A program made the position numbers and the translations under genes. From Acidilobaceae archaeon (lineage in GTDB: Archaea > Thermoproteota > Thermoprotei_A > Sulfolobales > Acidilobaceae), in the NCBI GenBank assembly GCA_026413755.1, contig JAOAKH010000013.1:1-32343 (forward strand): DNA of 32,343 bases, read 5' to 3'. Below, piece after piece: positions 2,257-18,824 of this stretch (within the stretch, counting starts at the first letter, position 1; every line of letters begins with the position of its first letter). A model generated the notes under the pieces. It saw nothing but the letters and a program-made list of their open reading frames with translations. It was not told where the DNA came from and did not search any database.

Positions 2257-2820
2257 CTAGCCCCCCTCCCGAGCTAAAGGGCATGCGGCGAGGAGCTCGC
2301 TCCTCACGCACTCGTCATCTATAGAGAGCTCGCACCCGTACTTCCTCAGGAGCCTCTCCAGCACCTCCAGAGCCCTCAAAGCGCTCTCAAACGTCGCGCT
2401 CGATATGCCTCCCGGCTCGAGCGAGAGGGCAGGGATGCCGAGGATGTAGGAGTCCCCGCTCAGCTGGCCGCTGGCTGCAGCGAGGGCCACCAGCGCGGCG
2501 GGGCTCACGCTGTGGGGATCAAGGGACCTCATGAACTCCTCGAGCTCTTGCGCGTTGAGCCTCCCCGGCTCCACTTTGAAGAGCTTGGGGCCCTCTGAGA
2601 TCCTCGCCGCGTCGAGGAACACCACTAGCCCCCAGCCGTGGAGCATGCCCACCTCCCATAGGCCCAGCGTCTCACGCACCTCCCCGTTTATCCCAGGCAC
2701 GCACTTCATCAGAGCTGTAGCTAGGCAGCTCCCTATGCCGTCGTCGCCGTAGAGGGGGTTGCCTACCCCCACTATCAGCGCCCTCGCGCAACCCTCTCCC
2801 TCAGCCCTTGCCTGAGCCAC
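2257..2820 (-). CDS. Hydrogenase maturation protease (M52, HyaD/HybD-type)
   Basis: Endopeptidase that removes the C-terminal extension of the [NiFe] hydrogenase large subunit once nickel is inserted. The signature GVGNPLYGDDGIG is at residues 18-30. Candidate metal-binding residues matching the HybD Glu/Asp/His triad are D27, D70 (VVFLDAAR) and H103 (SLDPHSVSP). The 187-residue length fits. The GTG at 2820 is the only plausible start before the first strand and gives a 46-base overlap with the preceding ACS-like gene, which indicates translational coupling. The likely substrate is HynL (11845-13716), which ends 24 residues after its DPCLACAVH motif. The distinctive C-terminal tail ends in CPLAREGG. 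Confidence 0.88.
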   Translation of the reverse strand: MAQARAEGEGCARALIVGVGNPLYGDDGIGSCLATALMKCVPGINGEVRETLGLWEVGMLHGWGLVVFLDAARISEGPKLFKVEPGRLNAQELEEFMRSLDPHSVSPAALVALAAASGQLSGDSYILGIPALSLEPGGISSATFESALRALEVLERLLRKYGCELSIDDECVRSELLAACPLAREGG

Positions 2821-4505: not shown

Positions 4506-4516
4506 GCTTGGCGGCA

Positions 4517-5065
4517 CTACCCCCACTTATCCTCCCCCTTCAGAATGATCACCTGAGAGTAGTAGTAGGCCAACAGCTTGAGCTTCTCCGCCTCCCTCAC
4601 GTCCTCGTAGAGCGGCACGACGACGCTAGGCCTGACGCTCCTCACGACCTCCAGCCCCTCCTCCGGCGTGAAGGCCCCTTTGCCCAGCGGGAGGAGCAGG
4701 ATCGTCGCCCTCTCCTCCCTCGCGGAGGCCAGCTCAGCTATCAGCCCTGCGGCGCCCGTGTGGTACACCTTACAGCCGCCCGCCTCCACGATGTAACCTA
4801 CGCCCTCTCCCCTCCTGTAAAGCCTCTCATCCCCCACGTCCTCCCTGCTGTACGCCTCCGTTGCCCTCACCCTGAAAGCCCCTAGGGATGCCTCCTCCCC
4901 TGGCCTCAGCGATGGAGCATTGCCAGAGAGCCTCGTGTAGAGGCGGTGGTTGCAGGCGCCTTGGAGGACGTCTATGCAGAGGGACTCGCTGCCGACGCTT
5001 ATCTTAACGCCGAAAGGTCCTACTCTTTCTACCACGCACCCCCTGACCTTCAGGGCGCTGGGCAA
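4517..5065 (-). CDS. Degenerate metallo-beta-lactamase-fold protein (UPF0173-like)
   Basis: A 182-residue protein whose C-terminal half fits the second half of MBL-fold hydrolases. It has GYIVEAGGCKVYHTGAAGLIAEL (compare the family's VYHAGDT), then ILLLPLGKGAFTPEEGLEVV and a strand SVVVPLYED where the family has a metal-binding His. The HxHxDH metal motif is represented only by GACNHRLYTR, the Asp of the H-x-G-D motif is Ala, and the final His is missing. Metal-dependent hydrolysis is therefore unlikely as drawn. It starts with TTG 11 bases after the hypE stop codon and precedes the ACS-like gene by 11 bases, so it sits inside the maturation operon. Function unknown. Confidence 0.6.
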   Translation of the reverse strand: MPSALKVRGCVVERVGPFGVKISVGSESLCIDVLQGACNHRLYTRLSGNAPSLRPGEEASLGAFRVRATEAYSREDVGDERLYRRGEGVGYIVEAGGCKVYHTGAAGLIAELASAREERATILLLPLGKGAFTPEEGLEVVRSVRPSVVVPLYEDVREAEKLKLLAYYYSQVIILKGEDKWG

Positions 5066-5076
5066 AGCGGGACCCC

Positions 5077-6135
5077 TTAGCAGATCCTCGGCACTAGGTC
5101 GCCCGTGGGCGGCTCCAGCACCCTGTAGCCCCCAACGGTGGAGCGAAGGAGGACGTAGCCTTTGTACCTCTCGCTGCCTCTGACCTCCCCTATTATTCTC
5201 GCGTCCTCGAAGCCGAGGCCTCTCATGTACTCCACCACCTCCTCCGCCGCTGCCGCGTCCACTGAGAGCACGGCCGCGCCCTCGCTGGCCAGGTATAAAG
5301 GATCTACGCCCAGCATCTCCGCGTAGTCCTTCACGGGCCTCCTTATCGGGATCTTCCCCTCATCTACTACTATAACTTTTCCCGCAGCCTTTGCCCACTC
5401 GTTCAGGACCCCCGCAAGCCCTCCCCTCGTGGGGTCCCTCGCAGCCCTTATGTGATCCCCGTACTTCTCCACGAGGGGCACCATGAGCCGCGTGAGAGGC
5501 CTTGCGTCGCTCTTCAGCAGCCCCTTCTCCAGCTCTTCCACCCTCTCCCCCACCCCCATCTGGAGCAGCAAGATCACGGCCCCGTGATCTCCTACATGGC
5601 CGCTCACGATCACCTTGTCGCCCTCCCTGGGCACGTCCACTATGGGCTTCCTTGCTATGCCCAGGACTGTGGTGTTTATGATCACCTTGTCCACCGAGCC
5701 CTTGGGCATGACCTTGAAGTCGCCCCCTATCACCGCCACGCCCTCCTCCCGGAAAACGAAAAGCATGGAATCCACTATCCTGCTGAGGTCCTCTATGGGG
5801 AAGCCCTCCTCCACGACTATAGCATCGAGGGCCGCGAGAGGCACTCCTCCCATCATTAGCACGTCGTTTATAGAGCCCGCTGCTGCAAGGGTCCCTATGT
5901 TCCCTCCGGGGAAGAAGGGCGGGCTAACCGTGTACGTGTCTGTGGAGATCACCAGGAACTCGCCGTTCCCCATGGGTATGAGGGCGCCGTCGTCAGGGTA
6001 ATCAATGCCGAGGCCCCCCTCCACCTTCTTCTTCTCCACCCTCGATATGATCAGGCTCTCTATCAGCTTGTGCATCTCCACGCCTCCAGAGCCGTGCGCT
6101 AGCTTCACGAACTTGTCCCTATCCAAGCCCCCCAC
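5077..6135 (-). CDS. hypE: Hydrogenase maturation factor HypE
   Basis: PurM-like ATPase that dehydrates its own C-terminal S-carbamoyl-cysteine to thiocyanate and donates cyanide to iron on HypC-HypD. Diagnostic features are LAHGSGG near the N-terminus, DDGALIP, STDTYTVSPPFFPGGNIG, GSINDVLMMGG, IGGDFKVM, ARDPTRGGLAGVLNEWA, and the C-terminal LVPRIC with the reactive Cys as residue 352, the last residue. Full length. It overlaps the end of hypC by 17 bases. GTG at 6135 is used; an in-frame TTG at 6126 would give the equally plausible start MDRDKFVKL. Confidence 0.97.
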   Translation of the reverse strand: MGGLDRDKFVKLAHGSGGVEMHKLIESLIISRVEKKKVEGGLGIDYPDDGALIPMGNGEFLVISTDTYTVSPPFFPGGNIGTLAAAGSINDVLMMGGVPLAALDAIVVEEGFPIEDLSRIVDSMLFVFREEGVAVIGGDFKVMPKGSVDKVIINTTVLGIARKPIVDVPREGDKVIVSGHVGDHGAVILLLQMGVGERVEELEKGLLKSDARPLTRLMVPLVEKYGDHIRAARDPTRGGLAGVLNEWAKAAGKVIVVDEGKIPIRRPVKDYAEMLGVDPLYLASEGAAVLSVDAAAAEEVVEYMRGLGFEDARIIGEVRGSERYKGYVLLRSTVGGYRVLEPPTGDLVPRIC

Positions 6136-6421
6136 CCGCTGCGCTCCTGAAGAGGGACCTAAGCCTAGCTATGAGGTCCTGCGGGGGCTCCTCCCCCGCT
6201 ATGGCGGCGAGCTCCTCTATGTACTTTATGACCTCCTCTATCTGCTCATATGAGAGCCTCGAGACTATAACTCCTGCGTGCACGAGCACTGCCGCCCCGG
6301 GCAGGACCTCTTGGGCAGAGATGCCCAGCACCACCCTCTTTGGCATCCCGTCGCCGAAGTCCACCTCTGCCGTTGTGTCGTCTATGACGCTAACGACTAT
6401 TGCAGGCACTCCCCAGCACAA
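6119..6421 (-). CDS. hypC: Hydrogenase assembly chaperone HypC
   Basis: Small chaperone that carries the Fe(CN)2CO unit with HypD and delivers it to the large subunit. The essential N-terminal cysteine is directly after the initiator (MCWGVPA), which fixes the start at the TTG of 6421. The 100 residues include the OB-fold-like core (AEVDFGDGMPKRVVLG, VLPGAAVLVHAGVIVSRL) and a C-terminal helix YEQIEEVIKYIEEL. It follows hypD by six bases and overlaps hypE by 17. Confidence 0.96.
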   Translation of the reverse strand: MCWGVPAIVVSVIDDTTAEVDFGDGMPKRVVLGISAQEVLPGAAVLVHAGVIVSRLSYEQIEEVIKYIEELAAIAGEEPPQDLIARLRSLFRSAAGGGLG

Positions 6422-6427
6422 CGCTCC

Positions 6428-7633
6428 TCACCCCTCCAGCAGCCCCAGCTCCCTCACCATGTCCTCCGTGACCCCTCCCTCCCCGAACCTAGCCCAAATA
6501 GCGCACGTTCCTTCCATCGAGACCATGCAAGGCCCGTATGGCGTGCTTGGAGTGCACTTCCTTAGGAAAAGCGGGCAGTCCGTGGGCTTGGCCTTGCCGA
6601 GCACTACTTCGGCGCACTTGCAACCCGGCGGCGTGTCCTTCTTCCACTCCTCCACCCTCATCTCTCGTATGCCGTACCTCGTCCTCGCGTCGTGCTCCGA
6701 GTACTTCTCCCTCACCCTCAGCCCGCTGCGCGGCAGGAAGCCTATCCCCCTCCACGCAGCATCAGAGACCTCGAAGGCCTTGTGGATCGCCGCCTGAGCC
6801 CTGAGGTCCCCGTCAAAGCTCACGGCCCTCTTGTACTCTATTTCCACCTCTGCCCTCCCTTGCAGCAGCTGCCTAAGGATGAGCGCCACTGCCATCATGA
6901 CGTCAATGGGCTCAAAGCCCGCCACCACTACGGGGATCTCGAAGGCCTCAGCTACGGGCACCCAGGCCTTTGCGCCCGTTATCGTAGATACGTGGCCGGG
7001 GGCTATGACCCCCATTACCGGGGGCTCGGGGGGCTTCTCCCTGAGGATGCTAAGGGAGTAGAACATGGCAGGGGGCGTGAGCCTCACGAGACTCATGAGG
7101 CTCAGGTTCTCTGGCATAAGGCCTGCTAATAGAGCATGAGCATAGCCAGGAGCTACTGTCTCGAAGCCTATGCCCAGGAAGACAGCCTCCTTCCCGTACT
7201 TCCTTGCGTCTGCTATCGCGTCGTATATGCTCGTCACCACCTTCACGCTCCCCCCTAGTGCCCTAGCCTCTGCGAGCGAGTAGGCCCCGTTAACGGGGCT
7301 CACCGTTCTCAGGCGGTAGGAGTCGCCGTAAGTGTAAACTGTGACCCCCTTGAAGGAGAGCTTCATGGCCTCCTCCAGCTCCCAGGAGGGAGTAACGCAG
7401 ACGGGGCACCCGGGGCCTGCCACGAGCTCCAGGCCCTTGGGCATGAGGGTCCTGAGGCCGTAGTGAGTTATGGTCCACTCGTGGGTTCCGCAGAAGTCCA
7501 TGATCTTGAGCCTCGCCCTTGAGCCCCACTTTTCCCCTAGCTTCTCCAGCAGCTTGGCTATGTAGCTCCTTAGCTGGAGGGCCAGCTGCGGGTTCTCCCT
7601 AAAAACGGCCTCCACGAGCAGCCTTGGGTCCAC
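6428..7633 (-). CDS. hypD: Hydrogenase maturation factor HypD
   Basis: Iron-sulfur scaffold on which Fe(CN)2CO is built with HypC. The 401 residues contain the conserved DFCGTHEWT (C48), AGPGCPVCVTP (C76, C79), GIGFETVAPG, IAPGHVSTITG and AGFEPIDVM. The C-terminal [4Fe-4S] region includes PPGCKCAEVVLGKAKPTDCP, then RKCTPSTPYGPCMVSMEGTC. GTG at 7633 gives a normal N-terminus. The 54-base gap upstream is AT-rich and probably holds its own promoter. Downstream hypC follows after six bases. Confidence 0.97.
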   Translation of the reverse strand: MDPRLLVEAVFRENPQLALQLRSYIAKLLEKLGEKWGSRARLKIMDFCGTHEWTITHYGLRTLMPKGLELVAGPGCPVCVTPSWELEEAMKLSFKGVTVYTYGDSYRLRTVSPVNGAYSLAEARALGGSVKVVTSIYDAIADARKYGKEAVFLGIGFETVAPGYAHALLAGLMPENLSLMSLVRLTPPAMFYSLSILREKPPEPPVMGVIAPGHVSTITGAKAWVPVAEAFEIPVVVAGFEPIDVMMAVALILRQLLQGRAEVEIEYKRAVSFDGDLRAQAAIHKAFEVSDAAWRGIGFLPRSGLRVREKYSEHDARTRYGIREMRVEEWKKDTPPGCKCAEVVLGKAKPTDCPLFLRKCTPSTPYGPCMVSMEGTCAIWARFGEGGVTEDMVRELGLLEG

Positions 7634-7650
7634 CGAGGCCCCCGGAGGAG

Positions 7651-7690
7651 ATTAATGGCATATGTTTATGAGTTCTACATATATATTCTA
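7651..7690 (-). promoter_or_regulatory. AT-rich gap with putative internal promoter for hypD
   Basis: Within the otherwise tightly packed maturation operon this stretch is strongly AT-rich. Read on the minus strand it contains AATATATATG (about 7678-7687) and CATAAAC (about 7663-7669). Either could act as a TATA box for a second transcription unit beginning with hypD at 7633. No experimental support. Confidence 0.4.
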
Positions 7691-8113
7691 CGCACAAAGC
7701 TCGCCGAGAGCCTCCATGGCGAGCTCGTAGGCCCTCTCCTCGGCGTTGGCAGAGACCTCCACGACTATGAAAGGCTCCTCCACGAAGAGCCTCAGCGCGT
7801 TAGCAGTGCCGCGCACGTCCACGTCACCTGAGAGGGAGAGCTGTAGGTCCTCCCTCAACGCCTCCCACCCCTCGGGGCTCCGCAGGGGCTCCACCACGAG
7901 CCTCCTGTAGCCCTCTCGCTCTCCCTCTGCGCAGCCCAGCAGCACGAGGCCCCTGCCCGCGGCGTCTGCGGCTATCCTCAGAGAGTCGAGGAGCCCCTCC
8001 CCGAGGACGCACCTACCGATCCTCTGCCTCTCCAGAACCCTGAGGAGCCCCCTCCCGCACTTCGTCACTACGTGCGCCCTCACTGCCACGTAGAGCTCTT
8101 CTAAGCGCTTCAT
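7688..8113 (-). CDS. Unknown protein between hypB and hypD
   Basis: I do not recognise it. From ATG 8113 it encodes 141 residues beginning MKRLEELYVAVRAHVVTKCG. It has an alternating alpha/beta pattern: LRIAADAAGRGLVLLGCAEG, then VDVRGTANALRLFVEEPFIVVEVSANAEE. Cysteines occur in VTKCGRG, GRCVLGEG, LLGCAEG and near the C-terminus (GELCA). Its first 101 bases overlap the end of the preceding gene in another frame. This is either a long gene overlap or the trace of a frameshift splitting one longer protein. Position between hypB and hypD suggests a hydrogenase accessory role (inference). An extended GTG/ATG start at 8149 is possible but less likely. Confidence 0.5.
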   Translation of the reverse strand: MKRLEELYVAVRAHVVTKCGRGLLRVLERQRIGRCVLGEGLLDSLRIAADAAGRGLVLLGCAEGEREGYRRLVVEPLRSPEGWEALREDLQLSLSGDVDVRGTANALRLFVEEPFIVVEVSANAEERAYELAMEALGELCA

Positions 8114-8366
8114 ATAGGTCCTCCCCCTCCAGCCCCATGGCCCTCGCAATCTCTGCCTTTAGCTCCTCCGCGCTGGGTTGGGCGGGCGTCCTCAGCTCGT
8201 AGAAGGCCCTCAACGCCTCCTCGCCGAGCTGCCTCTTCATGTCACCTAGAAGGGCCTCCAGGAGCTCCCTCTCTAGGCTCCTCACGGCTTCCTCCAGCGC
8301 TGCCCCACCCTTCAGGAGGCTTGCAAGCAGCCTCAAGATCTCCTCTCTCTTCTCCAAGGCCCCCAT
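8013..8366 (-). CDS. Small predicted helical protein downstream of hypB, unknown
   Basis: Not recognised. It has 117 residues from ATG 8366, almost entirely predicted helix and very rich in Glu, Leu and Arg (ILRLLASLLKGGAALEEAV, SLERELLEALLGDMKRQL, AEELKAEIARAMGLEGEDL). There are no cysteines and no obvious active site. The last 35 or so residues, where it overlaps the next gene, turn Ser/Gly/Glu-rich and look unstructured. Its true function may end near residue 85. It begins 10 bases after the hypB stop codon, so it is probably co-transcribed with hypA-hypB. Confidence 0.5.
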   Translation of the reverse strand: MGALEKREEILRLLASLLKGGAALEEAVRSLERELLEALLGDMKRQLGEEALRAFYELRTPAQPSAEELKAEIARAMGLEGEDLYEALRRALRGSEGARSDEVREGAPQGSGEAEDR

Positions 8367-8376
8367 GAGAGGGTCC

Positions 8377-9099
8377 CTACAGGCTTAATATGTCGTCCAG
8401 CATGCGCTCCGCTTCCCTTGCAAAGCGAGTCTCGAGGAGCCTCTCCGCCCTCCCTAGAGCGCTGCTGAGCCCCTCGTCGAAGCCTATGACGCCTAGGTGC
8501 CTGAAGCCCAGCCTCTCAGCCTCCTCCCTCAGCAGAGGGCCTCCGCGGCCCATGTTCTCCACCACGCCGACTGCTCTCAGCCCCTCCTTTTTGAACAGGC
8601 TCAATGCTTTCGAAACGCTATAGAGACTAAGGGGCTCCTGCGTTGAGATCACCAGGCCCCTCGCCCCTAGGCCCATTACCTCCAGGGCCTCGTCCTTAAG
8701 GCCGGGCGGCATGTCCAAGATCAGCACGTCTAGCTCCCCCCACTCCGCTGCCACGAGCAGCTCCTTGAGGGCTTCTGTTGCAGAAGAGCCCCTCAGGGCA
8801 AGAGGGTTATCCCTCGTGAAGATCACCGGCGTCACTAGCTTCACGCCGGAAACCTCTAGGGGCCTGAAGCCCTTACCCTCCTCGATAGAGGCCCTCCCTG
8901 CCTCAACGCCCAGCACCACATGTGCTGTGGAGTTAGTGAGGTCCGCGTCCACCAGCCCCACCCTCAGCCCTCTCCGGGCAAGGAGGAGGCTGAGGACTGC
9001 TGCCGCGGTGGTCTTCCCCACCCCGCCCTTGCTGCTCAAGACGGCGTACGACCTCACGCTCCCTAGCAGCTTCCTAGCATATAAAGCCTTGAAGTCCAA
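8377..9099 (-). CDS. hypB: Mrp/MinD-type HypB (ATPase-type nickel insertion partner of HypA)
   Basis: SIMIBI-class ATPase with a deviant Walker A KGGVGKTT (signature K24, catalytic K29), VDADLTNST (D51, D53) and switch II LDVLILDMPPG (D129). Later motifs include TQEPLSLYSVSKAL and VVENMGRGG. This is a Mrp/MinD-like protein, not the bacterial GTPase HypB. In Thermococcales an ATPase of this kind is encoded beside hypA and partners it in nickel delivery; the adjacency here, four bases downstream of hypA, supports the same role. TTG at 9099 is preceded by GGAGGGGTGA at the end of hypA, a strong ribosome-binding site. Length 240. No CxxC Fe-S scaffold motif is seen, which argues against an Mrp/Nbp35 cluster carrier. 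Confidence 0.85.
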   Translation of the reverse strand: MDFKALYARKLLGSVRSYAVLSSKGGVGKTTAAAVLSLLLARRGLRVGLVDADLTNSTAHVVLGVEAGRASIEEGKGFRPLEVSGVKLVTPVIFTRDNPLALRGSSATEALKELLVAAEWGELDVLILDMPPGLKDEALEVMGLGARGLVISTQEPLSLYSVSKALSLFKKEGLRAVGVVENMGRGGPLLREEAERLGFRHLGVIGFDEGLSSALGRAERLLETRFAREAERMLDDILSL

Positions 9100-9102
9100 G
9101 CC

Positions 9103-9495
9103 TCACCCCTCCAGCACGAAGGAAACTCTTGCCCCCCTGCCGCCTGCTATTTCATAGTCGTGGGTGCCACAGCTGGGACACCTAACATACGCGTATACTG
9201 CCTCCGGTAGGAAGTGAATGTACTCCCTTACCTCACTGCTTAGCTCCAGCTCTCTCAAATTCCACAAGCGGCCGCACCTCCTGCACCTGAAGGACGCCTC
9301 CTCCTCTACTAGCTCGTAGCCCGCGCCTATCCCCATCTCCTTTAGTCCCGCCTCCAAGTGCTCTCTTATCACCTCTCTGTCTAGGCCCTGTAGCTCCCCC
9401 AAGTGAACTCTGATCTTCCTGATCTTGCCCCTCTCCTTCTGGTGTACCTCTTCTACAGCAGAAAGTATGGCCGTAACTAGCGCGAGTTCATGCAC
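9103..9495 (-). CDS. hypA: Hydrogenase nickel incorporation protein HypA
   Basis: Nickel metallochaperone. The start is fixed at GTG 9495 because the conserved nickel-binding N-terminus Met-His-Glu must be formed (MHELALVTAIL). Longer in-frame extension runs through the promoter and is rejected. The zinc domain has C71/C74 (FRCRRCG) and C106/C109 (VRCPSCG), with a long insertion between the pairs as in other archaeal HypA proteins. 130 residues. A GGAGGG tract at about 9503-9508 precedes the start. First gene of the maturation operon, divergent from hynS. Confidence 0.95.
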   Translation of the reverse strand: MHELALVTAILSAVEEVHQKERGKIRKIRVHLGELQGLDREVIREHLEAGLKEMGIGAGYELVEEEASFRCRRCGRLWNLRELELSSEVREYIHFLPEAVYAYVRCPSCGTHDYEIAGGRGARVSFVLEG

Positions 9496-9524
9496 CCTGA
9501 GCCCTCCATAAGACGTCCTCTTTG

Positions 9525-9540
9525 CCCTTATAAATTTATC
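9525..9540 (-). promoter_or_regulatory. Putative hypA promoter (TATA-like box)
   Basis: On the minus strand the stretch reads GATAAATTTATAAGGG, an AT-rich TATA-like element about 37 bases before the hypA GTG. It leaves room for a short leader containing the GGAGGG ribosome-binding site. Confidence 0.5.
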
Positions 9541-9544
9541 GCTG

Positions 9545-9600
9545 AAATATATAAATATATAAGCACTCGCCAATATATATGTATATGTGGACAGGTGATT
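9545..9600 (+). promoter_or_regulatory. hynS: Putative hynS promoter and ribosome-binding site
   Basis: Two TATA-like tracts lie at 9545-9562 and 9572-9587. The first would give a leader of about 24 bases that includes AGGTGATT at 9593-9600, a long match to the anti-Shine-Dalgarno consensus, four bases before the TTG at 9604. The second would give a nearly leaderless transcript. The doubled arrangement may allow switching between two start sites. Confidence 0.5.
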
Positions 9601-9603
9601 TGG

Positions 9604-10872
9604 TTGAGATTAAGCCGCCGCGACTTCATGAAGCTAACAGGGGCCTCTGCAGCGCTGCTCGCCCTAGACTGGGACAGAGTAGTGAGGGCCGCAGCGCAGG
9701 CACTGGGTAAGGGTAAGTATAACATAGTCTGGTTTGAGGCTCAGTCGTGTACCGGAGACACCAGTGCGCTTCTGCTAGCCACAGATCCCGATATACTCCA
9801 GGTGCTTACCGGCCACCTTCACGTAGTAGGCCCTGGGGCCGTCTCGCTGGTCTTCCACGACGCCGTTATGCCGGAGTGGGGCGATGCTGCTCTAGACATC
9901 CTTTACAAGGCGGCAGCGGGCGAGCTCGACCCCTTCGTGCTGGTGGTCGAGGGCACAATTGCTGTGGACGAGAAGGCAGGAGGGCCTCCTAACAGCGACT
10001 ACTTCTGCTACGTGGGGAAGGAGTACGGGAAGCCCATCTCCTGCCTGGAGTGGATCAGGAGGCTCATGAAGAGGGCCGCTGCCGTAGTTGCCGTAGGCAA
10101 CTGCGCCTCCTTCGGCGGCATATACTCTAACAGGGTCATTGAGGAGGAGTTCTTTGTAAAGTACGGCTTCGATTGGTTCCTCCAGTACCCAAAGCTCGGG
10201 AGGAGCAGGTCCCCCACGGGCTGCGTGGGCTTCGTGGACAACAAGCAGAAGGGCTTCAAGGGACTGCTCAGCCTGCTGGGAGAGGAGGCGGAGCCTTACA
10301 GGAGGTTTGCCGAGGGGAGGGACTGCCAGCTGCTAAAGAACTGCAAGCCCATAGTTGCCGTACCAGGCTGTCCAGCAAACGGGAACGCCACCCTGAAGAC
10401 CCTCGCCCACCTCGTGCTAGCCCTAGAGGGCCTCATGCCGCTGTCGAGGGATCAATTCGATGAGCTCCTGAGGCCTAAGTACTTCTTCCTCGAGACCACT
10501 CACAACAACTGCCCAAGGGCAGGCCACTATGCCGCGGGCAGGTGGAGGAAGTACCCGGGCGATGGCTCCCAGTACTGCCTCTGGGGGGTAGGCTGCAAGG
10601 GCCCCGTCTCCCACTGCCCCTGGAACAGGCTGGGCTGGGTGAACGGCGTGGGGGGCTGCGTGAGGCAGGGCTCCGTCTGCATGGGTTGCCACGAGCCGGG
10701 CTACTCAGATGCGTTCCAGCCGTTCTTCGAGAAGCTGCCATACGTCTTCGTTAGCAGGGACGCTCTAGTAGATGCGCTCGTGGGGGCTGCCGCCGCGGCG
10801 GCAGTGATCGGGGTTGCCAGCGGCGCGCTGGCTTACATGAGGTCCCGGGGAGGTGGGGCGAAGCATGGCTAG
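9604..10872 (+). CDS. hynS: [NiFe] hydrogenase small subunit, Tat-exported, membrane-anchored
   Basis: Electron-transfer subunit carrying three Fe-S clusters. The 422 residues begin with a twin-arginine signal (LSRRDFMKLTGASAALLAL) and end with a membrane anchor at about 389-412 (ALVGAAAAAAVIGVASGALA), so it faces outside. Proximal cluster ligands are C49, C167 (GNCASFGG) and C256 (PGCPANG). The fourth, normally the second Cys of CTGC, is D52 (SCTGDTSALL). Distal ligands are H300, C303, C325 and C331. Medial ligands are C338, C359, C362 plus an extra C352 at the position usually occupied by Pro. TTG 9604 is chosen because of the ribosome-binding site and the ideal Tat signal; GTG 9595 is possible. 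It overlaps the cytochrome gene by eight bases. Resembles crenarchaeal group 1 uptake hydrogenases. Confidence 0.95.
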   Translation: MRLSRRDFMKLTGASAALLALDWDRVVRAAAQALGKGKYNIVWFEAQSCTGDTSALLLATDPDILQVLTGHLHVVGPGAVSLVFHDAVMPEWGDAALDILYKAAAGELDPFVLVVEGTIAVDEKAGGPPNSDYFCYVGKEYGKPISCLEWIRRLMKRAAAVVAVGNCASFGGIYSNRVIEEEFFVKYGFDWFLQYPKLGRSRSPTGCVGFVDNKQKGFKGLLSLLGEEAEPYRRFAEGRDCQLLKNCKPIVAVPGCPANGNATLKTLAHLVLALEGLMPLSRDQFDELLRPKYFFLETTHNNCPRAGHYAAGRWRKYPGDGSQYCLWGVGCKGPVSHCPWNRLGWVNGVGGCVRQGSVCMGCHEPGYSDAFQPFFEKLPYVFVSRDALVDALVGAAAAAAVIGVASGALAYMRSRGGGAKHG

Positions 10873-11848
10873 GCTCCTGCTCGGGGTCATAAACGTCATA
10901 GTGGCGGCCATCCTCTGGACTATCACTGCTGTGCTGGTGTACTACGTCGCCGTAAAGCCCCTGCCGTCAATGATATCTGAGCTCCAGCTTGCCATGAAAG
11001 CGCCGGCGCTCTCTAGCTGGGAGTGGTGGATCCCGGCAGCGAAGTTTTTGCTCGCAGCGGCTTCCGTGATCTTACTCTTGCTGGGAATCTACGTTGCTGT
11101 GAGGTATCTCTCCCTGGGCTTCTTTGAGTCAGGCAAGTGGCTGCGCTTCCAGCTCTCCCCCGAGGCGGCCTCTGAGAGGTTCATAATGAGGATACCCCTC
11201 TTCGACAGGGTAAACCACATGATCCTTGTCCTGGGCTTCTTTATGTGCCTCAGCGGCTTCATACTCTACTTCGGCGACAACGCGTACATATACGGCTTCC
11301 TGTACCTGGGCGGCAGGGACTTCCTTGCTAACATTCATGTGATCGGAGGCTACGTAGTGTTCTTCGCCGTCACGCTCCACATAAGCCGCTACCTCACCCT
11401 CTTCCTGCTTTACGCAAAGGACCGCGGCCTCAGGGGAGCGATCAGGGCGTTCCCGCTGCTCCGCCTGCTGCCTTCCCTGCCTCGCGACCTCCTCCACTAT
11501 TACCTCTGGCTGTTCTTCTTGAGGAAGGAGCACCCGAAGTACCATAAGTACATGCCCACTCAGACCATTGCATATTATGCCATAGGGGCCTTGTTGCTCA
11601 TATCGGGCGTCACAGGCTTCTCCATGGTCCTCTACGGCATGCAGTCAGGGGACGGGCTGGCCTGGTGGGTTCACCTGTATTCCTCTCTGTTCTTGACAGT
11701 CTTGATAACCTTCCACGTCTTCATGACTAGCCTGAGGCCAGAGTACTTCCCCCTCGACCTGACCCTCTTCACGGGCGAAGTCCCGGAGAGGGCTGCGAGG
11801 GAGGAGTGGCCCCTTTGGGTTGAGGAGGTGAGGGGTGAGAAGGCGTGA
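10865..11848 (+). CDS. Hydrogenase cytochrome b subunit
   Basis: Membrane heme subunit expected to pass electrons from HynS to the quinone or sulfur-reductase side. The 327 residues have about six membrane segments: roughly 5-30, 55-82, 117-136, 155-183, 235-257 and 267-288. Candidate heme-ligating histidines are H118, H158 and H172 (14 apart in one helix), and H270 and H284 (again 14 apart), the pattern of two b hemes as in HyaC and formate dehydrogenase gamma subunits. ATG 10865 overlaps the hynS stop (ATGGCTAG). Its stop overlaps the hynL start (GTGA). Placement between small and large subunit genes recalls the crenarchaeal hyn clusters. Naming as isp1 is not secure. Confidence 0.85.
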   Translation: MARLLLGVINVIVAAILWTITAVLVYYVAVKPLPSMISELQLAMKAPALSSWEWWIPAAKFLLAAASVILLLLGIYVAVRYLSLGFFESGKWLRFQLSPEAASERFIMRIPLFDRVNHMILVLGFFMCLSGFILYFGDNAYIYGFLYLGGRDFLANIHVIGGYVVFFAVTLHISRYLTLFLLYAKDRGLRGAIRAFPLLRLLPSLPRDLLHYYLWLFFLRKEHPKYHKYMPTQTIAYYAIGALLLISGVTGFSMVLYGMQSGDGLAWWVHLYSSLFLTVLITFHVFMTSLRPEYFPLDLTLFTGEVPERAAREEWPLWVEEVRGEKA

Positions 11849-13716
11849 GCGTTAGGGAGCTCATGGTAGATCCTATAACTAGGATAGAGGGCCACCTCGG
11901 GGCAAGGCTTCTGGTTAACGTCCACACCAGGAGGCCGAACCACGGGAGCGTCAGGGTCTTCGCCACGGCCTTTAGGGGCTTCGAGGTCTTCGGGCTAGGG
12001 AGGCCTCCTGAGGACATGCCAGCCATGACCAGCAGGTTCTGCGGCGTCTGCGGTTCCTCGCACGCTAACGCCTCGATGCATGCCGTAGATATGGCATACG
12101 GCGTCTCGCCCGAGCCCCTAGGGGTGGCGCTTAGGAACCTGGGCTTCGGGATGGATGAGTACCTCTACGATCACACGATCATCCTCAACCTGCTGGAGGG
12201 CCCAGATTACAGCGAGGTGATGGTGAAGAAGTTCACGCCGAGCGTTTGGAGCGAGGCAGAGAGGACGCTGGCAGAGAACAGGGGCAGGCACGGCTTCGAG
12301 AAGATCTCCGACATAATGAGGGCTTTTAATCCAGTTACAGGCAGGATGTGGCAGCTGGCGGTTCACTTCCAGAGAATAGCTAGGGAGGCGGGCGTGCTAA
12401 TATACGGCAAGCACCCGCACCCCAACGCGCTGATACCCGGCGGCATACAAACTAACATATATGACATAGAGGAGACCCTGATAGCCATAACTTACAGGCT
12501 CGTGAAGCTCACAGCTTGGGTGAAGTTCAACTACTACGTCTGGGAGGACCTGCTCAACTTCTACAAGAACATAGGCTACGAGATGGTAGGGCTTACGTAT
12601 CAGCGGCCTAGGCTCATGAGCGTGGGCCTCTTCGACGACCCGGAGAAGTACTCTCAGATAGGCAACTATGTGAGCTGGGAGGAGTTCTACAAGAGCATAG
12701 ACGCGGCCGCAGAGGCGAGGGACTTCAAGCCGGGCCTTGTGCTGGAGGGAGAGATGGTGAGCACAAAGTACACAGACATGAACGTCTCCACCATGGAGCA
12801 CGTTGACATGTCCTTCTACGACGAGTGGAAAGACAAGGTGAGGAAGGAGGAGTGGTACACAGAGGTAGATCCCTTCGGCAGCAAGCTCCTCTGGGGCAAC
12901 GAAGACCCTGCTTATCACCCATGGAACAAGGTCACGCTGCCTAAGCCCAAGAGGCTAGACTGGAACGATAAGTATACGTGGGTAGCGAGGGTCAACATTG
13001 TCTGGAAGGACGGCACCATAGGGCCCATAGAGGTAGGGCCCTTCGCGAGGGTCTACGTGCAGTCCAGGAGGTCCGCCACTACGGCGGGCGGCCTCATGAA
13101 GTCGGGCAACGGTAAGGTGGAGGTAACGCTGCCCAGGGCTGTAGCAAGCGAGCTGCCTCCCACGGTATGGGAGGAGGCCACGATAGAGTGGAATGTGCCG
13201 GAGAGCAGCACCACCATATACAGGCTCTGGGGCAGGGCCTTCTGCCTGGTTATGGTGGCAGCCAGCATGTGGGGCAACGTCCTCAAGACTATGGAGATCC
13301 TCAGGCAGGGGGAGAGGAAGTCCTCGAGGCCGTGGAAGGTGCCGAGGGGCATAACGAGGGGAGCTGGCTTCGTGGAGGCGCCGAGGGGAGCCGTGAGGCA
13401 CTGGATAGTGCAGAGGGGAGGGAGGACCCTGAACTACCAGGCCCATGCGCCGACCACAGCAAACGCGTCTGCAAGGGACGAGAAGAGGGTGACCGACAAG
13501 GAGCGCTACGCGCCAGGGCCTTTCGAGGCAGCAGTGTCTAACGTAGTGATCACAGAGGAGCTGCCCCCCGAGAAGTGGGAGGGCCTGGACGTAGTGAGAG
13601 CCATAAGGAGCTTCGACCCCTGCCTTGCGTGCGCAGTTCACATCGAGTTCGGTGAGGGAGACAAGATCATAAAGACCGTAAAGAAGATAGTTACTGAGAT
13701 CCCCACGACGCTCTAA
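11845..13716 (+). CDS. hynL: [NiFe] hydrogenase large subunit
   Basis: Catalytic subunit with the NiFe(CN)2CO site. 623 residues. N-terminal L1 motif RFCGVCGSSHANAS (C66, C69, H73) and C-terminal L2 motif DPCLACAVH (D591, C593, C596, H599) supply the four Ni ligands. PITRIEGHL near the N-terminus contains the conserved glutamate (E15). The protein continues 24 residues past H599, the peptide expected to be removed by the protease encoded at 2257-2820. No signal of its own, so it would be exported with HynS through Tat. GTG start overlaps the cytochrome stop codon. Followed by T-rich tracts. Confidence 0.97.
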   Translation: MSVRELMVDPITRIEGHLGARLLVNVHTRRPNHGSVRVFATAFRGFEVFGLGRPPEDMPAMTSRFCGVCGSSHANASMHAVDMAYGVSPEPLGVALRNLGFGMDEYLYDHTIILNLLEGPDYSEVMVKKFTPSVWSEAERTLAENRGRHGFEKISDIMRAFNPVTGRMWQLAVHFQRIAREAGVLIYGKHPHPNALIPGGIQTNIYDIEETLIAITYRLVKLTAWVKFNYYVWEDLLNFYKNIGYEMVGLTYQRPRLMSVGLFDDPEKYSQIGNYVSWEEFYKSIDAAAEARDFKPGLVLEGEMVSTKYTDMNVSTMEHVDMSFYDEWKDKVRKEEWYTEVDPFGSKLLWGNEDPAYHPWNKVTLPKPKRLDWNDKYTWVARVNIVWKDGTIGPIEVGPFARVYVQSRRSATTAGGLMKSGNGKVEVTLPRAVASELPPTVWEEATIEWNVPESSTTIYRLWGRAFCLVMVAASMWGNVLKTMEILRQGERKSSRPWKVPRGITRGAGFVEAPRGAVRHWIVQRGGRTLNYQAHAPTTANASARDEKRVTDKERYAPGPFEAAVSNVVITEELPPEKWEGLDVVRAIRSFDPCLACAVHIEFGEGDKIIKTVKKIVTEIPTTL

Positions 13717-13720
13717 ACTC

Positions 13721-13747
13721 CCCCTTTTTACCCCTCGCCCTTTTTCT
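13721..13747 (+). terminator. Possible transcription terminator after hynL (T tracts)
   Basis: Two pyrimidine-rich runs each with five T (13725-13729 and 13741-13745) follow the hynL stop codon. Archaeal termination occurs at such T tracts. Because the next gene begins at 13756 on the same strand, termination may be partial. Confidence 0.4.
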
Positions 13748-13755
13748 CCTCACCT

Positions 13756-14355
13756 TTGGTGGGCTACGTGGAGGAGGTAGTGTCGAGAGCCCTCTCCCAA
13801 GCACTCCTTTACGGCTTCCCCATAGAGTTCAAGGTCTCGGGAAGCGTAGTCACGATACGCTACAAGGGGAGAGGGGTCCAGTACGTCGTCCTAGAACTGA
13901 GAGACCTCTCGGGGAAGCCCTCAGGCGTGGGCCTTGCGGTCCCAGGCCTAGAGCAGTTCCACGTCAAGATAGCTGAGCTGGGCGAGGACGGGGCTAAGGT
14001 GCTCTGGGAGGAGCTGCCGAAGGCCATAGCCCTTGACAAGAAGTTCATGGGGTGGGGAGAAACTGACCTCTGGATCATCAGGTTCAAGCTGAGGGGACAG
14101 CTGAGGGAAGCAAAGGACCCTCCCGAGCCCTTGCGGGAGCTCCTGGGGCTGGGCCTCAAAGCCTACACTTCCCCAGAGCAGCTCGAGTACGCCGTGGGCT
14201 CAGAGGGCGTCATAGGGCTCTGGTACACTCCCATGACGAGCAGGGTTGACTTTGCCATGGAGATCCAGGAGAGGATGGGCCTCTTCAGGTGGGGAGAGGC
14301 CCTGAGGGGGGCAAGGGAGTGGGTAGAGAGGGTAGAGCAGTCAAGGTGGCTGTGA
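13756..14355 (+). CDS. Unknown protein between hynL and hypF
   Basis: Not recognised. About 199 residues, no cysteine, no membrane segment or signal. It has mixed alpha/beta character: SGSVVTIRYKGRGVQYVVLE, LAVPGLEQFHVKIAEL, MGWGETDLWIIRFKLRGQL, EQLEYAVGSEGVIGLWYTP. A basic, Trp-containing C-terminus ends EWVERVEQSRWL. The start is uncertain: TTG 13756, GTG 13759 and GTG 13768 are in frame and none has a clear ribosome-binding site. It overlaps hypF by several codons, implying translational coupling, and lies between two hydrogenase genes, so an accessory role is likely but unproven. Confidence 0.65.
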   Translation: MVGYVEEVVSRALSQALLYGFPIEFKVSGSVVTIRYKGRGVQYVVLELRDLSGKPSGVGLAVPGLEQFHVKIAELGEDGAKVLWEELPKAIALDKKFMGWGETDLWIIRFKLRGQLREAKDPPEPLRELLGLGLKAYTSPEQLEYAVGSEGVIGLWYTPMTSRVDFAMEIQERMGLFRWGEALRGAREWVERVEQSRWL

Positions 14356-16634
14356 GGGGAGTAGTGCAGGGGGTGGGCTTCAGGCCCTTCGTATACAGGC
14401 TCGCCTCCTCCCTGGGGCTCAGGGGATACGTAAGGAACATGGGCGGCAGCGAGGCGGAGATCTGGCTTGAGGGGGAGGACAGCAAGGTAGAGGAGTTCCT
14501 CAGGAGGCTGAGGGAGGAGAAGCCCCCGCCTGCAAAGCTGGAGGAGGTGAGGCTGGAGGAGGTGGCGCCTGCAGGACATATGCAGTTCTTGATCCTCGAG
14601 AGCTCGGCGGCAAAGAGGGTGAGGAGCTCCATACCCCCGGACATAGCGATCTGCGAGGACTGTGCGAGGGAGGTCCTGAGCCCCGGGAGCAGGTTCTCCG
14701 GCTACCATTGGAACAGCTGCGCCTGGTGCGGGCCGAGGTTCTCCATGATATACGAGATACCTTACGACAGGCACAACACAGCTATGAGGGATTTCCCGCT
14801 CTGCGAGGACTGTGCGAGGGACTACGGCGATCCTGCTAACGCCAGAAGGTTCCACGCCCAGGGCATAAGCTGCAGCCGCTGCGGCCCCAAGACCTTTGTG
14901 CTCTCCGGTAGGGGCGAGAGGATAAGCGTAGAGGACGCCGTGGAGTTCATTGCAACGGCGATAGAGGAGGGCCGCATAGTTGCAATAAAGGGGGTGGGAG
15001 GGTACCACATAGCCTCCCTGGCCTCCCGCGACGAGGTGGTGGCGGAGCTCAGAAGGAGGAAGAGGAGGCCCACTAAGCCCTTCGCCCTTATGGCCAGAGA
15101 CCTGGAGGTAGTGGAAAGGATAGCCGAGGTGCCGCCCATTGCGAGGGAGCTCCTCCTCTCGCCCCAGAGGCCCATAGTGCTGCTGCCAAAGAAAGAGGGG
15201 GCGCCCGTTTCAGAGCTAGTGGCCCCCGGCCTCTCCTCCCTCGGCATAATGCTGCCCTACACCGCCTTCCAGCTACTGCTCATGCAGAAAGTCAAGGACG
15301 GCTTCCTGATCATGACGAGCGCGAACGTCCACGGCAGGCCTATGTGCACAGAGCTGGACTGCGTGCTCAGGGAGCTCTCGGACGCTGTGGACTACGTCGT
15401 GGAGCACGAGCGCAAGATAGCCCATAGGGCTGACGATAGCGTCGTGAGGCTCACAGATGGCGAGCCCGTCATGCTAAGGAGAGGGAGGGGGTACGCCCCC
15501 TCCTGGCTCCAGCTGCCCTTCCAAATAGCGGAGTCAGCAGCGGTGGGGGCGGAGCTGCAGACGGCGGGGGCGGTGGCTTTCGAGGACAAGGCCGTGCTAA
15601 CTCAGTACATAGGCGACGTGGACGAGCCGGCCACGCTGGAGGAGCTGGAGAGGGAGGTGAGGTGGCTCCTGCGCGCCTATGACTTGAGGCCTGCCTTTGT
15701 TGCCCGTGACATGCACCCGCTCTACCATAACAGGAGGCTTGCGGAGGAACTGGCGCAGGAGCTGGGGGCCAGCATAGTGGAGGTGCAGCACCACCACGCT
15801 CACGCAGCTGCTGCCATGGTAGAGGCAGGAGTGGGAGAGGGGGAGAGGGTGGCAGCCATAGCTATAGACGGCACCGGCTACGCTTCTCCGGGGAGCATAT
15901 GGGGAGGGGAGGTTCTCATAGCTAGCTATGAAAGCTATGAAAGGGCGGGGAGCATTAGGCCCTTCAGCCTCCCGGGCGGCGACAGCGCCGCTATCTACCC
16001 AGCGAAGCCGCTCGTAGCCCTAATGGCCTCTTACGGCTACTCCGAGGATGAGGTTCTAGAGGCCCTGAGGAGGAGGGGCTTGCTGAGGTCCCTCCCCTAC
16101 GGGGAGAAGGAGGCTATAGTAACTTACGAGGCGGCAAGGAGGCGGAAGGGGGTAGAGACCTCGAGCCTCGGGAGGACTCTCGACGCCTTCTCTGCACTGC
16201 TGGGGACATGTGCAGCGAGGACTTACGAGGGAGAGCCCCCGATGCTGCTAGAGTCCCTTGCAGAGAGGGGCAAGAGGGTGATAGCGGAGGCGGAGGTGAC
16301 CTCCGAGGAAATACCCAGGGTGAGCGTGCGCCCCCTCTTGGAGGTGGCGCTGGCGGGAGGAGCGCCAAGAGAGGACGTAGCTCTCTCCGTACAGCTGAGC
16401 ATAGGGGAAGCCCTGGGGAGGATAGCCGTCTCTGCCCTGAAGGGGAGGAGGGGGGTGAGAGGAGACCTGCTTGTAGTCAGCGGCGGTGCCGCTGTTAACA
16501 CCTTCATACTGAGGGGCATACGGCAAGCCGCGAGAGAGGGGGGGCTGAGGGTCTTCGTCCCCAGGCTCGTGCCCCCCAACGACGGCTCCATAGCTCTCGG
16601 GCAGCTCGCTGTGGGCCATCACCTCGTCCGCTAG
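14319..16634 (+). CDS. hypF: Carbamoyltransferase HypF
   Basis: Makes carbamoyl-adenylate from carbamoyl phosphate and transfers the carbamoyl group to the HypE C-terminal Cys. Domains appear in the usual order. First is the acylphosphatase domain (VRGVVQGVGFRPFVYRLA). Then come two zinc fingers (CEDC...CAWCG and CEDC...CSRCG), then a YrdC-like domain (GRIVAIKGVGGYHIA, RRRKRRPTKPFALMA, SPQRPIVLLPKK), then a Kae1-like domain (VQHHHAHAAAAMVEAG, AIAIDGTGYASPGSIWGGE). About 771 residues from GTG 14319; GTG 14289 and GTG 14346 are alternatives. The start overlaps the preceding unknown gene. A 9-base tandem duplication encodes Ser-Tyr-Glu twice at 15924-15941. Confidence 0.96.
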   Translation: MGREGRAVKVAVRGVVQGVGFRPFVYRLASSLGLRGYVRNMGGSEAEIWLEGEDSKVEEFLRRLREEKPPPAKLEEVRLEEVAPAGHMQFLILESSAAKRVRSSIPPDIAICEDCAREVLSPGSRFSGYHWNSCAWCGPRFSMIYEIPYDRHNTAMRDFPLCEDCARDYGDPANARRFHAQGISCSRCGPKTFVLSGRGERISVEDAVEFIATAIEEGRIVAIKGVGGYHIASLASRDEVVAELRRRKRRPTKPFALMARDLEVVERIAEVPPIARELLLSPQRPIVLLPKKEGAPVSELVAPGLSSLGIMLPYTAFQLLLMQKVKDGFLIMTSANVHGRPMCTELDCVLRELSDAVDYVVEHERKIAHRADDSVVRLTDGEPVMLRRGRGYAPSWLQLPFQIAESAAVGAELQTAGAVAFEDKAVLTQYIGDVDEPATLEELEREVRWLLRAYDLRPAFVARDMHPLYHNRRLAEELAQELGASIVEVQHHHAHAAAAMVEAGVGEGERVAAIAIDGTGYASPGSIWGGEVLIASYESYERAGSIRPFSLPGGDSAAIYPAKPLVALMASYGYSEDEVLEALRRRGLLRSLPYGEKEAIVTYEAARRRKGVETSSLGRTLDAFSALLGTCAARTYEGEPPMLLESLAERGKRVIAEAEVTSEEIPRVSVRPLLEVALAGGAPREDVALSVQLSIGEALGRIAVSALKGRRGVRGDLLVVSGGAAVNTFILRGIRQAAREGGLRVFVPRLVPPNDGSIALGQLAVGHHLVR

Positions 16635-16767: not shown

Positions 16768-18063
16768 GTGGACACACTTACGCTGGCGGTCTTTCTGATC
16801 ACGATAGCTTCAATAATATTCCTCCCCCTCGAGAGGTCCCTTGTGGCCTTTGCAGGGCTTATAGCGATGGTGCTGCTCTCCCAGCACTACGACTTCGTGG
16901 ACGCCTTCAAGGCGGTGGACTGGAACGTTATGATGATACTCCTCGGTATGTGGACCCTCTCCGGCTACCTCTCCAAGTCCCGCCTGCCAGAATACATAGT
17001 GTACGAAGTTGCAAAGAGAACGCACTCCTACGCTGCGTTCCTTCTCTCCCTTACGCTCATAGCCTCCTTCACCACGCTCTTCGTCGACAACGTGCTAGTC
17101 ATCCTCCTCTTCGGTGGGCTAGCGGTGAGGGCCGCAAAGCTCGTGGGCAAGGACCCGCTGTTGACCTCAATGATAATTGGGCTGGCTGCCAACTATATGG
17201 GCACCGGCTTGCTGCTGGGCGACTTGCCCCCCCAGCTCCTCCACAGCGTTGCGGGAGCTGAGTTCCTCGACTTCGTATGGTTCCGTGGCACCCCCGGCAG
17301 CCTGTTCCTCCTGACGGCCTCCTTCCTCCTCACGCTTGCCCTCTTCTACAGGCCTTGGTTTGGCGGGAGGGCGAGGCAGGTAGACATAGACGTGGAGAAG
17401 CCCAAGGACTTCGACGCCTTCACCGCAGCCATGGCGCTCCTTGGCTTCCTCGCCTTCGTGGTCCTCGCCTCCTTCAGGCCTCTGCTGGGCGTAGAGCTGG
17501 GAGCCATAGCAGTCTCCGTTGCCATAGCAGTAGCTGCGCTGTTGGAGACGGCAAGGGCATATGGGAGGAGGAACGTGCCCTCCTACGAGGAGGTGATCAG
17601 AGACATGGAGTGGAGGGTCTTCATATTCTACGCCAGCCTCTTCGGCCTCGTGGGAGGGCTAAAGGAGGGGGGCGTCATAAAGAGCTTCCTCGAGCCCATC
17701 CACTCCTTCCTTGCCTCTCACTCGCTGCTCTCCTTTGCTGTAGTTTACTGGCTATCCGCGGCCCTCTCTTCCTTCGTGGAGCACGATGCTGTCATACTCG
17801 TAGCCCTCGTTACGGTAAAGGAGCTGGCCCAGTCCTTCGCCATAGATCCCTGGCCTTTCTACTGGGCGATCGTGTGGGCGGGCACTCTCGGCAGCAACGC
17901 CACCATAACGGGAGCTCCGGCGCTGTACCTCTCTCTATTGCTTGCAGAGAAGGAGAGAGGGAGGGCCAGCTGGGTAGAGTGGATGAAGATAACGGTGCCC
18001 TTCACGCTTGTCTCCACGACTATACACTTTGCAATATCGCTCCTTGTGCTACAGTTTTGGTGA
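16768..18063 (+). CDS. ArsB/NhaD-type ion permease
   Basis: Integral membrane protein of 431 residues with roughly 10-12 hydrophobic segments, of the ion transporter superfamily that includes ArsB, NhaD and citrate/dicarboxylate permeases. Family-like features are the early FLPLERSLVAFAGLIAMVLL segment, the FVDAFKAVDWNVMMILLGMW re-entrant region, SFTTLFVDNVLVILLFGGLAV in the first half and the repeat-related WAGTLGSNATITGAPALYLS in the second half. This fits a secondary transporter with two inverted halves. The substrate (arsenite, Na+/H+ or organic anion) cannot be told from sequence. GTG 16768 is the start. It is preceded by a palindromic candidate operator and followed after five bases by the long hairpin element. 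Confidence 0.8.
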   Translation: MDTLTLAVFLITIASIIFLPLERSLVAFAGLIAMVLLSQHYDFVDAFKAVDWNVMMILLGMWTLSGYLSKSRLPEYIVYEVAKRTHSYAAFLLSLTLIASFTTLFVDNVLVILLFGGLAVRAAKLVGKDPLLTSMIIGLAANYMGTGLLLGDLPPQLLHSVAGAEFLDFVWFRGTPGSLFLLTASFLLTLALFYRPWFGGRARQVDIDVEKPKDFDAFTAAMALLGFLAFVVLASFRPLLGVELGAIAVSVAIAVAALLETARAYGRRNVPSYEEVIRDMEWRVFIFYASLFGLVGGLKEGGVIKSFLEPIHSFLASHSLLSFAVVYWLSAALSSFVEHDAVILVALVTVKELAQSFAIDPWPFYWAIVWAGTLGSNATITGAPALYLSLLLAEKERGRASWVEWMKITVPFTLVSTTIHFAISLLVLQFW

Positions 18064-18068
18064 GAAGG

Positions 18069-18352
18069 GGCGGACGCGCTGCGCAGAGCACTTCATGAAA
18101 CGCGTTGCGCCCTACCTCGGGGCCCCGTGAGACAGCAATAAGGCAGAAATCGCATAGAGTGGGGGCATAATGCTATCTCAAGCCCTAATGCTCTGGGCCT
18201 TCCATCCCTCGGGGGTCGCCCCTCGGGTGTATGGCCCAGGGCATTGGGGCCTGGGACGGCATTATGCCCCCACTCTATGCGATTTCTGCCTTATTGCTGT
18301 CCCAGGCAGGGCGCAACGCGCCTGCGCAGGTGCTCTGCGCAGCGCGTCCGCC
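18069..18352. repeat. Giant inverted repeat / 284-nt long hairpin element
   Basis: Nearly the whole stretch folds back on itself around 18216. The inner arms 18131-18173 and 18259-18301 are a perfect 43-bp match. The pairing continues inward with the same register to 18213/18219: over 18131-18213, by my count, 71 Watson-Crick pairs, five G-U (plus strand) and seven mismatches. Outward, 18101-18113 pairs with 18308-18320 (13 bp) and 18069-18091 with 18330-18352 (23 bp), separated by a 9x9 internal loop. The left arm carries an 11-nt insertion with the self-complementary CGGGGCCCCG (18118-18127). The loop also holds self-complementary TTCATGAA (18092-18099) facing CCTGCGCAGG (18321-18330). No coding capacity that I believe. 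It fills most of the 359-base gap between two convergent genes. It could be a MITE-like foldback element, a structured RNA or a terminator. Confidence 0.9.
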
Positions 18353-18387
18353 AACCCTATCTAATGTCAGCGGAGGTTAATAAGGGA

Positions 18388-18422: not shown

Positions 18423-18824
18423 TCAATAGACGTAGGCTATCAGAACTCCTCCAGTCTTCTTCTCTATTGCCTCCAGGCTGGTCATGACGCCCTTGTCAGT
18501 GGAGAGGATGAGTATGCCTATGTCCCTGCTTGCTAGGTACTTGCGGTAGTGCTCGGGCAGCTTCACTAGCTCCCTGTACTTCACGGAGACCCTGGGCTTT
18601 ATGGCGCCGCAGTCGTTTATCCTGCCCAGGAGCTGCACCCTGAACTTGCCCCACCTCCCGTCGTCTATGTACTCAAAGTCGCCGATGTAGCCCTCTCTCT
18701 TCATTACGTTTAGCACCTGGGCTACCAGCTTGGAGGCAGGCCATACTATTGCCTCGCTCTTCCCCCTCTTCTCCGAATTCTTTATCGTTGAGAGAGCGTT
18801 AGCCAGGGGGTCCAGGGTCACCAC
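18423..18824 (-). CDS. rpsH: Ribosomal protein S8
   Basis: 30S protein binding the central domain of 16S rRNA. 133 residues, archaeal length. N-terminal [20 protein letters not shown] is the S8 signature helix, and the C-terminus has [20 protein letters not shown] and ends GGVLIAYVY, the conserved rRNA-binding part. GTG start six bases after the S14 stop codon. It is the last gene of the operon here; L6, which normally follows, is absent. Confidence 0.97.

Follow-up and report, generated by a model that had tools for sequence, protein, structure and literature searches.

We identified positions 18069–18352 of the window (the whole stretch of Acidilobaceae DNA analysed, 32,343 nt) as a probable stand-alone, unannotated noncoding RNA gene on the minus strand, whose working form is predicted to be a homodimer; to this reading as a whole we assign a probability of about 0.75. 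The RNA would be made from the minus strand by its own TATA promoter at 18376–18385 and would fold into a rod of ~284 nt, in which an outer stem is followed by an internal loop with a palindrome on each strand, then by an inner stem and a lateral mini-hairpin whose loop is GGCC, a middle stem that can vary in sequence provided that pairing holds, and a conserved apical domain.

The 284-nt hairpin at 18069–18352 was confirmed as real when its coordinates, arms and folding were rechecked. The predicted transcript runs on the minus strand from 18352, or just before, down to ~18069. Its outer stem, with a 5′ strand at 18330–18352 that begins GGCGG, forms 23 bp with the 3′ strand at 18069–18091; the inner stem forms 13 bp between 18308–18320 and 18101–18113; and the variable middle stem forms a perfect 43 bp between 18259–18301 and 18131–18173. 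None of these three arms contains a mismatch. The conserved apical domain (18195–18237) carries a GNRACCCCC-type apex and shares 93% identity with that of G001 (Acidilobaceae archaeon SKYB59), a member of the same genus. A preliminary description of this DNA had given the coordinates, the arms of 23, 13 and 43 bp, three palindromic blocks and a start 5 nt after a stop codon (TGA at 18061–18063, hairpin from 18069), all of which were recovered. By comparison, the single uniform register that it reported does not hold, because an 11-nt insertion in the left arm sets two registers, centred at 18210.5 for the outer arms and at 18216 for the inner arms. Folding of both strands, as had been suggested there, gave minimum free energies of –243 and –247 kcal/mol on the two strands, with z ~–22 for either (0/100 shuffles as low). 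When hairpins were ranked over 322 kb of this genome, the region scored 226 bits, compared with 41 bits for the next best.

Within its own genome, a 1.12-Mb draft of 51 contigs in which the window is contig 4, the hairpin is present as a single copy; no second copy was found there at E<0.001, and an exact 40-mer search of the genome contigs for the hairpin returned no match. All 6 genus genomes contain one hairpin each, directly after rps8. Because six separate assemblies carry it, an assembly artefact is excluded, including the fold-back that the preliminary description had named as its refuting case. In the window, the hairpin is flanked by rps8 (uS8; 18423–18824, minus strand), which only in this genus lies upstream of it in the same orientation, and by a convergent CitMHS/NhaD-like permease (16768–18063, plus strand), both lying outside the RNA; the G001 orthologue is likewise flanked by rps8 and, convergently, by a CitMHS/NhaD-type permease. 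Between G000 and G001, the outer parts and the apex of the hairpin are 93–97% identical, more than the flanking genes (rps8, 81%; permease, 77%), whereas the middle stem is 51% identical, against 49% for shuffled sequence, with its complementarity retained. In the six-member alignment, 88.9% of cells pair, a share that falls to 46.6% or less if the partners are shifted against each other, and both sides have changed at 53 of the 96 consensus pairs and, within the genus, at 12 of the 23 outer-stem pairs. The preliminary description had called for a search of the genome and its relatives and for a test of covariation, and had favoured selection for an RNA fold; the orthologues found in relatives, the single copy at home, the covariation, the conserved end and apex motifs and the conserved promoter described below all argue for such selection.

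The conserved spc ribosomal operon is interrupted after rps8 in the window's genus (window 18423–18824, loci L023–L027), with the RNA gene at the break; rpl6, which comes directly after rps8 in many other Acidilobaceae genera, is absent after rps8 here. In most of the other genera for which sequence was inspected, rpl6 or another coding region begins at once after rps8 and no hairpin is present. On the other side, the ORF translations show structural genes and hyp maturation genes of NiFe hydrogenase across window 2257–16634, reaching the permease that precedes the hairpin.

Relatives of the hairpin occur at other loci in other genera of the family. The covariance model R1 matched each genus member once and also matched G013 (E 1e-14) and G025 (2e-6) at other loci, as well as G023, likewise not at the genus locus, when laxer filters were used (1e-8). 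A common 3′ motif, CACCGGGCCCGGGG, added G010, which was recognised by motif and fold, and G012/G016. Genomes of other families (G053, G066, G072, G077, G082, G109 and G185) also match CACCGGGCCCGGGG in GC-rich stretches, but these show no such fold and were discarded as chance. Neither the R1 scan across the phylum (398 genomes) nor the order-wide R2 scan gave a match outside the family. When the hairpins of G010 and G013 were aligned to those of the genus with MAFFT, the palindromes fell out of register, so that no joint covariance model was built. Neighbours of the hairpin differ between genera: potC-type permeases adjoin it in G013, G025 and G016, and KaiC-like and fumarase genes in G012 and G023. 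The members in G016 (L169, G016:C35, 1–180) and G025 (L165, G025:C147, near 6700) sit close to a contig start or end and could be collapsed, and those of genus g8 are weaker. The latter (L168 3939–4136, L167 5934–6094) are GC-rich, with an uncertain outer boundary and an extra CCGCGCGG beyond the matched stem. Furthermore, genus g12 has a short form of 103 nt that may represent an assembly collapse of a longer hairpin, and the contig ends near hairpins suggest that short-read assemblies may conceal members of the family. Elsewhere on L167 (10468–12001, G012), short peptides (YPTKGIAT/HTLQRELQ) recur in every frame, which points to a CRISPR array that was translated as ORFs.

The complete genome G017 contains exactly one outstanding hairpin, of 320 nt, which scored 201 bits in the hairpin ranking, compared with 65 for the next, and lies between trpS and a VKOR gene. 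The tryptophanyl-tRNA synthetase of G017 is identical over 371 residues to PDB 3a04, which we take to be the Aeropyrum pernix K1 enzyme, and by this exact match G017 is identified as A. pernix K1. Two further species of the same genus have a hairpin at the same locus. The outer stems have diverged beyond alignment, while an apical block with GCCGGCCGGC is kept. As the stems of the Aeropyrum and window-genus RNAs are not alignable, the homology of the two sets is argued from the promoter, the overall architecture, the number of copies and the mini-hairpin with GGCC. The A. pernix transcript would be ~320 nt long, on the minus strand at 1563283–1563602, and would start ~28–30 nt past CCCTATAAAC. 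In Aeropyrum (L260 3387–3501, L301, L302), the apical loop CCCCCCA could pair with a conserved downstream UGGGGG, a possible pseudoknot. Across the Acidilobaceae, a family of heat-loving archaea, A. pernix K1 included, we infer a vertically inherited, single-copy RNA that would act in trans and whose genomic neighbours switch between genera.

The strand of the predicted transcript is indicated by a conserved promoter. The TATA-like box CCTTATTAAC (18376–18385, minus strand), which begins 33 nt before the 5′ end of the hairpin, is conserved in 6/6 genus members, where CACCCTAACCCCTTATAAAC or a close variant occurs upstream of the hairpin, just past the rps8 stop. In the whole G017 genome, CACCCTAACCCCTTATAAAC occurs once at ≤3 mismatches, immediately upstream of the sole giant hairpin and on the strand matching the minus strand of the window. 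A TATA-like box stands 30–36 nt before the hairpin in 11/11 clear members, the spacing in G010 and G013 having been read by eye from the sequence; since archaeal TATA boxes lie at about –26 to –30, with this spacing transcription would begin at the hairpin or immediately ahead of it. On the minus strand of the window, no gene follows the hairpin downstream of the box, only the antisense of the convergent neighbour. On the opposite strand of A. pernix, a TATA-like string lies ~50–55 nt from the hairpin, beyond the usual distance. The CACCCTAACCCCTTATAAAC matches in G041, G045, G025:C145, G035, G037, G002:C24 and G005:C22 are not followed by a long hairpin. Thus, a conserved promoter at fixed spacing to a conserved structured region, as expected of an independent noncoding RNA gene, is found here; its conservation suggests that the gene is transcribed, and its orientation points to the minus strand.

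The preliminary description had leaned to the plus strand from G-U counts. The asymmetry that it noted is present in the inner part of the window copy (about 4–5 versus 2) but disappears over the six species (35 versus 35). Applied to isolated mismatches, the same measure gave 22 versus 14 in the SRP RNAs of the same six genomes and 25 versus 20 in the hairpins; because known SRP RNAs also show little bias, G-U asymmetry has no power as strand evidence and decides nothing here.

Self-complementary patches interrupt the rod. Palindrome P (18321–18330, minus strand; CCTGCGCAGG), on the 5′ side of the internal loop, and palindrome Q (18092–18099, minus strand; TTCATGAA), on its 3′ side, face each other and never pair mutually, each being palindromic in itself. 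In relatives, P reads CCGCGCGG, CACTAGTG or CGCTAGCG, palindromic every time, and is also written CTGCGCAG among its forms, while Q reads TTCCGGAA, TTCTAGAA, TTCCAGGAA or CTCCGGAG, of which TTCCAGGAA is the sole odd-centred form. Both remain palindromic through sequence change (GCGC/CUAG; CAUG/CCGG/CUAG), and their adjacent central bases change together (AU/CG/UA, CG/UA). In addition, the lateral mini-hairpin CGG-GGCC-CCG (18118–18127, minus strand; CCG-GGCC-CGG or GCC-GGCC-GGC in relatives) keeps its self-complementary GGCC loop invariant on three covarying stems (CCG/CGG, CGG/CCG and GCC/GGC). P and Q are clear only in genera g1, g6 and g9 (Q also in g12), and the loops of Aeropyrum differ.

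These patches suggest pairing between molecules. Kretsch et al. (PMC12286853) described palindromic kissing loops in OLE and GOLLD RNAs, with changes of the OLE GGCC to GAUC or AGCU, and argued that covariation of adjacent bases cannot come from pairing inside one chain; on the same argument, the patches described here would pair intermolecularly. Palindromic loops that covary as palindromes across species, the hallmark of the ornate RNAs in that study, are found in this family as well. Similarly, dimerisation of the Hatchet ribozyme is driven by a palindromic internal loop (review PMC7357161). Palindromicity kept through change, as in OLE, together with the Hatchet precedent, leads to the prediction of a homodimer, in which P:P, Q:Q and GGCC:GGCC would pair between two identical molecules. 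The working form would be a homodimer or a higher homo-oligomer, with the variable rod as a rigid spacer, and the opposed palindromic strands, at a length of 10 nt or about one A-form turn, could geometrically give a double-crossover-like contact. Tentatively, and at somewhat below even odds, we propose a self-assembling, Acidilobaceae-wide archaeal noncoding RNA of ~300 nt that homodimerises through two opposed palindromic strands and a GGCC kissing hairpin, held apart by a sequence-free rigid spacer.

The strongest competitor, rather doubtful but deserving serious weight, is a monomeric RNA gene with no homodimer, in which P and Q would form the lateral hairpins of a four-way junction, each with 3 bp and a tetraloop, and GGCC would be a site of protein or tertiary contact. 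Hairpins of 3 bp are indeed possible in 10-nt palindromes, and the counterpart strands in Aeropyrum can form longer local hairpins. However, the four central loop bases stay self-complementary (GCGC, CUAG, CAUG, CCGG, GGCC), a property that local hairpins would not require, the odd centre CCAGG in G004 being the only exception.

An improbable alternative is an element that acts at the level of DNA and is not an RNA gene, such as a cruciform, a chromosome-organising site, a replication-fork barrier or a set of protein-binding palindromes, with arms kept by template switching. Long perfect tracts between fixed mismatched islands are the expected residue of quasipalindrome correction, as is the lack of G-U strand bias, and palindromes also suit dimeric DNA-binding proteins. 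Against this, promoter motif and spacing persist from genus to genus although no protein gene lies further along the same strand, the palindromes change compensatorily, and the SRP RNA controls are equally without bias. A bidirectional terminator or a stabiliser of mRNA 3′ ends would suit the position between convergent genes in the window but is very unlikely for a hairpin that has its own promoter upstream, neighbours that vary by genus, a length of 270–350 nt with conserved internal motifs and apex, and no equally large counterpart in the scanned DNA. Least probable of all, despite the long near-perfect inverted repeat, is the foldback mobile element entertained in the preliminary description, whether MITE-like or the remnant of a hairpin transposon: there is one copy per genome, inherited vertically at the same locus in the six species of the genus, with none extra at E<0.001 in its own genome and hairpin ends more conserved than coding DNA, and neither the multiple copies nor the variable insertion sites in close relatives that characterise a MITE were found.

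Comparison with known RNAs sets the predicted RNA gene apart. Rfam 15 gave no match to the hairpin at a family gathering threshold, in keeping with the earlier statement that no family of such form is described; the below-threshold matches at E≤1 were to long hairpins only (miRNA precursors and the like) and reflect chance. No description of such an RNA was found in the literature searched. Archaeal SRP (7S) RNA is similar in length, rod form, single copy number and TATA promoter, but a separate SRP RNA (RF01857) is encoded on other contigs in 6/6 genus genomes, with no match at the hairpin. Archaeal RNase P RNA (RF00373), likewise a single-copy structured RNA of ~300 nt, has a separate copy elsewhere in 6/6 genus genomes. 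The closer likeness is to OLE, together with ROOL and GOLLD (PMC12286853), in that the RNA is conserved and noncoding, its loops carry palindromic tetranucleotides that covary as palindromes, read there as symmetric intermolecular kissing, and its stem sequence is poorly conserved while pairing is conserved. By comparison, OLE, ROOL and GOLLD are bacterial, whereas the present RNA is an archaeal rod of about 250–350 nt with its own TATA promoter, without sequence or Rfam match to OLE (scanning the window against all of Rfam gave none to OLE RNA proper), and its oligomerisation is predicted from sequence. The Hatchet ribozyme dimer (PMC7357161) shares the palindromic internal-loop sequence; Hatchet is a small self-cleaving ribozyme, whereas the present RNA has two opposed palindromes of 8–10 nt.

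In this regard, the anatomy of the RNA fits a structural or scaffolding role, or the sequestration of an RNA-binding protein, better than antisense regulation, which suits it less well because the middle-stem sequence is not conserved. To our knowledge, few single-copy structured RNAs are kept across genera, namely rRNA, SRP RNA and RNase P RNA, and newly found RNAs of this kind with their own promoter have usually proved important. Ranking the hairpins of a genome and then seeking a common promoter offers a discovery route for genes that escape sequence and covariance searches. As the gene is unannotated, according to Rfam and the literature searched, in a genome identified as that of the culturable A. 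pernix K1, its expression, structure and oligomerisation are directly testable. If self-assembling, these RNAs would give the OLE, ROOL and GOLLD kind, known from bacteria, some of its first members in archaea, and if they dimerise, RNA-only quaternary structure would reach the archaea and growth temperatures near boiling.
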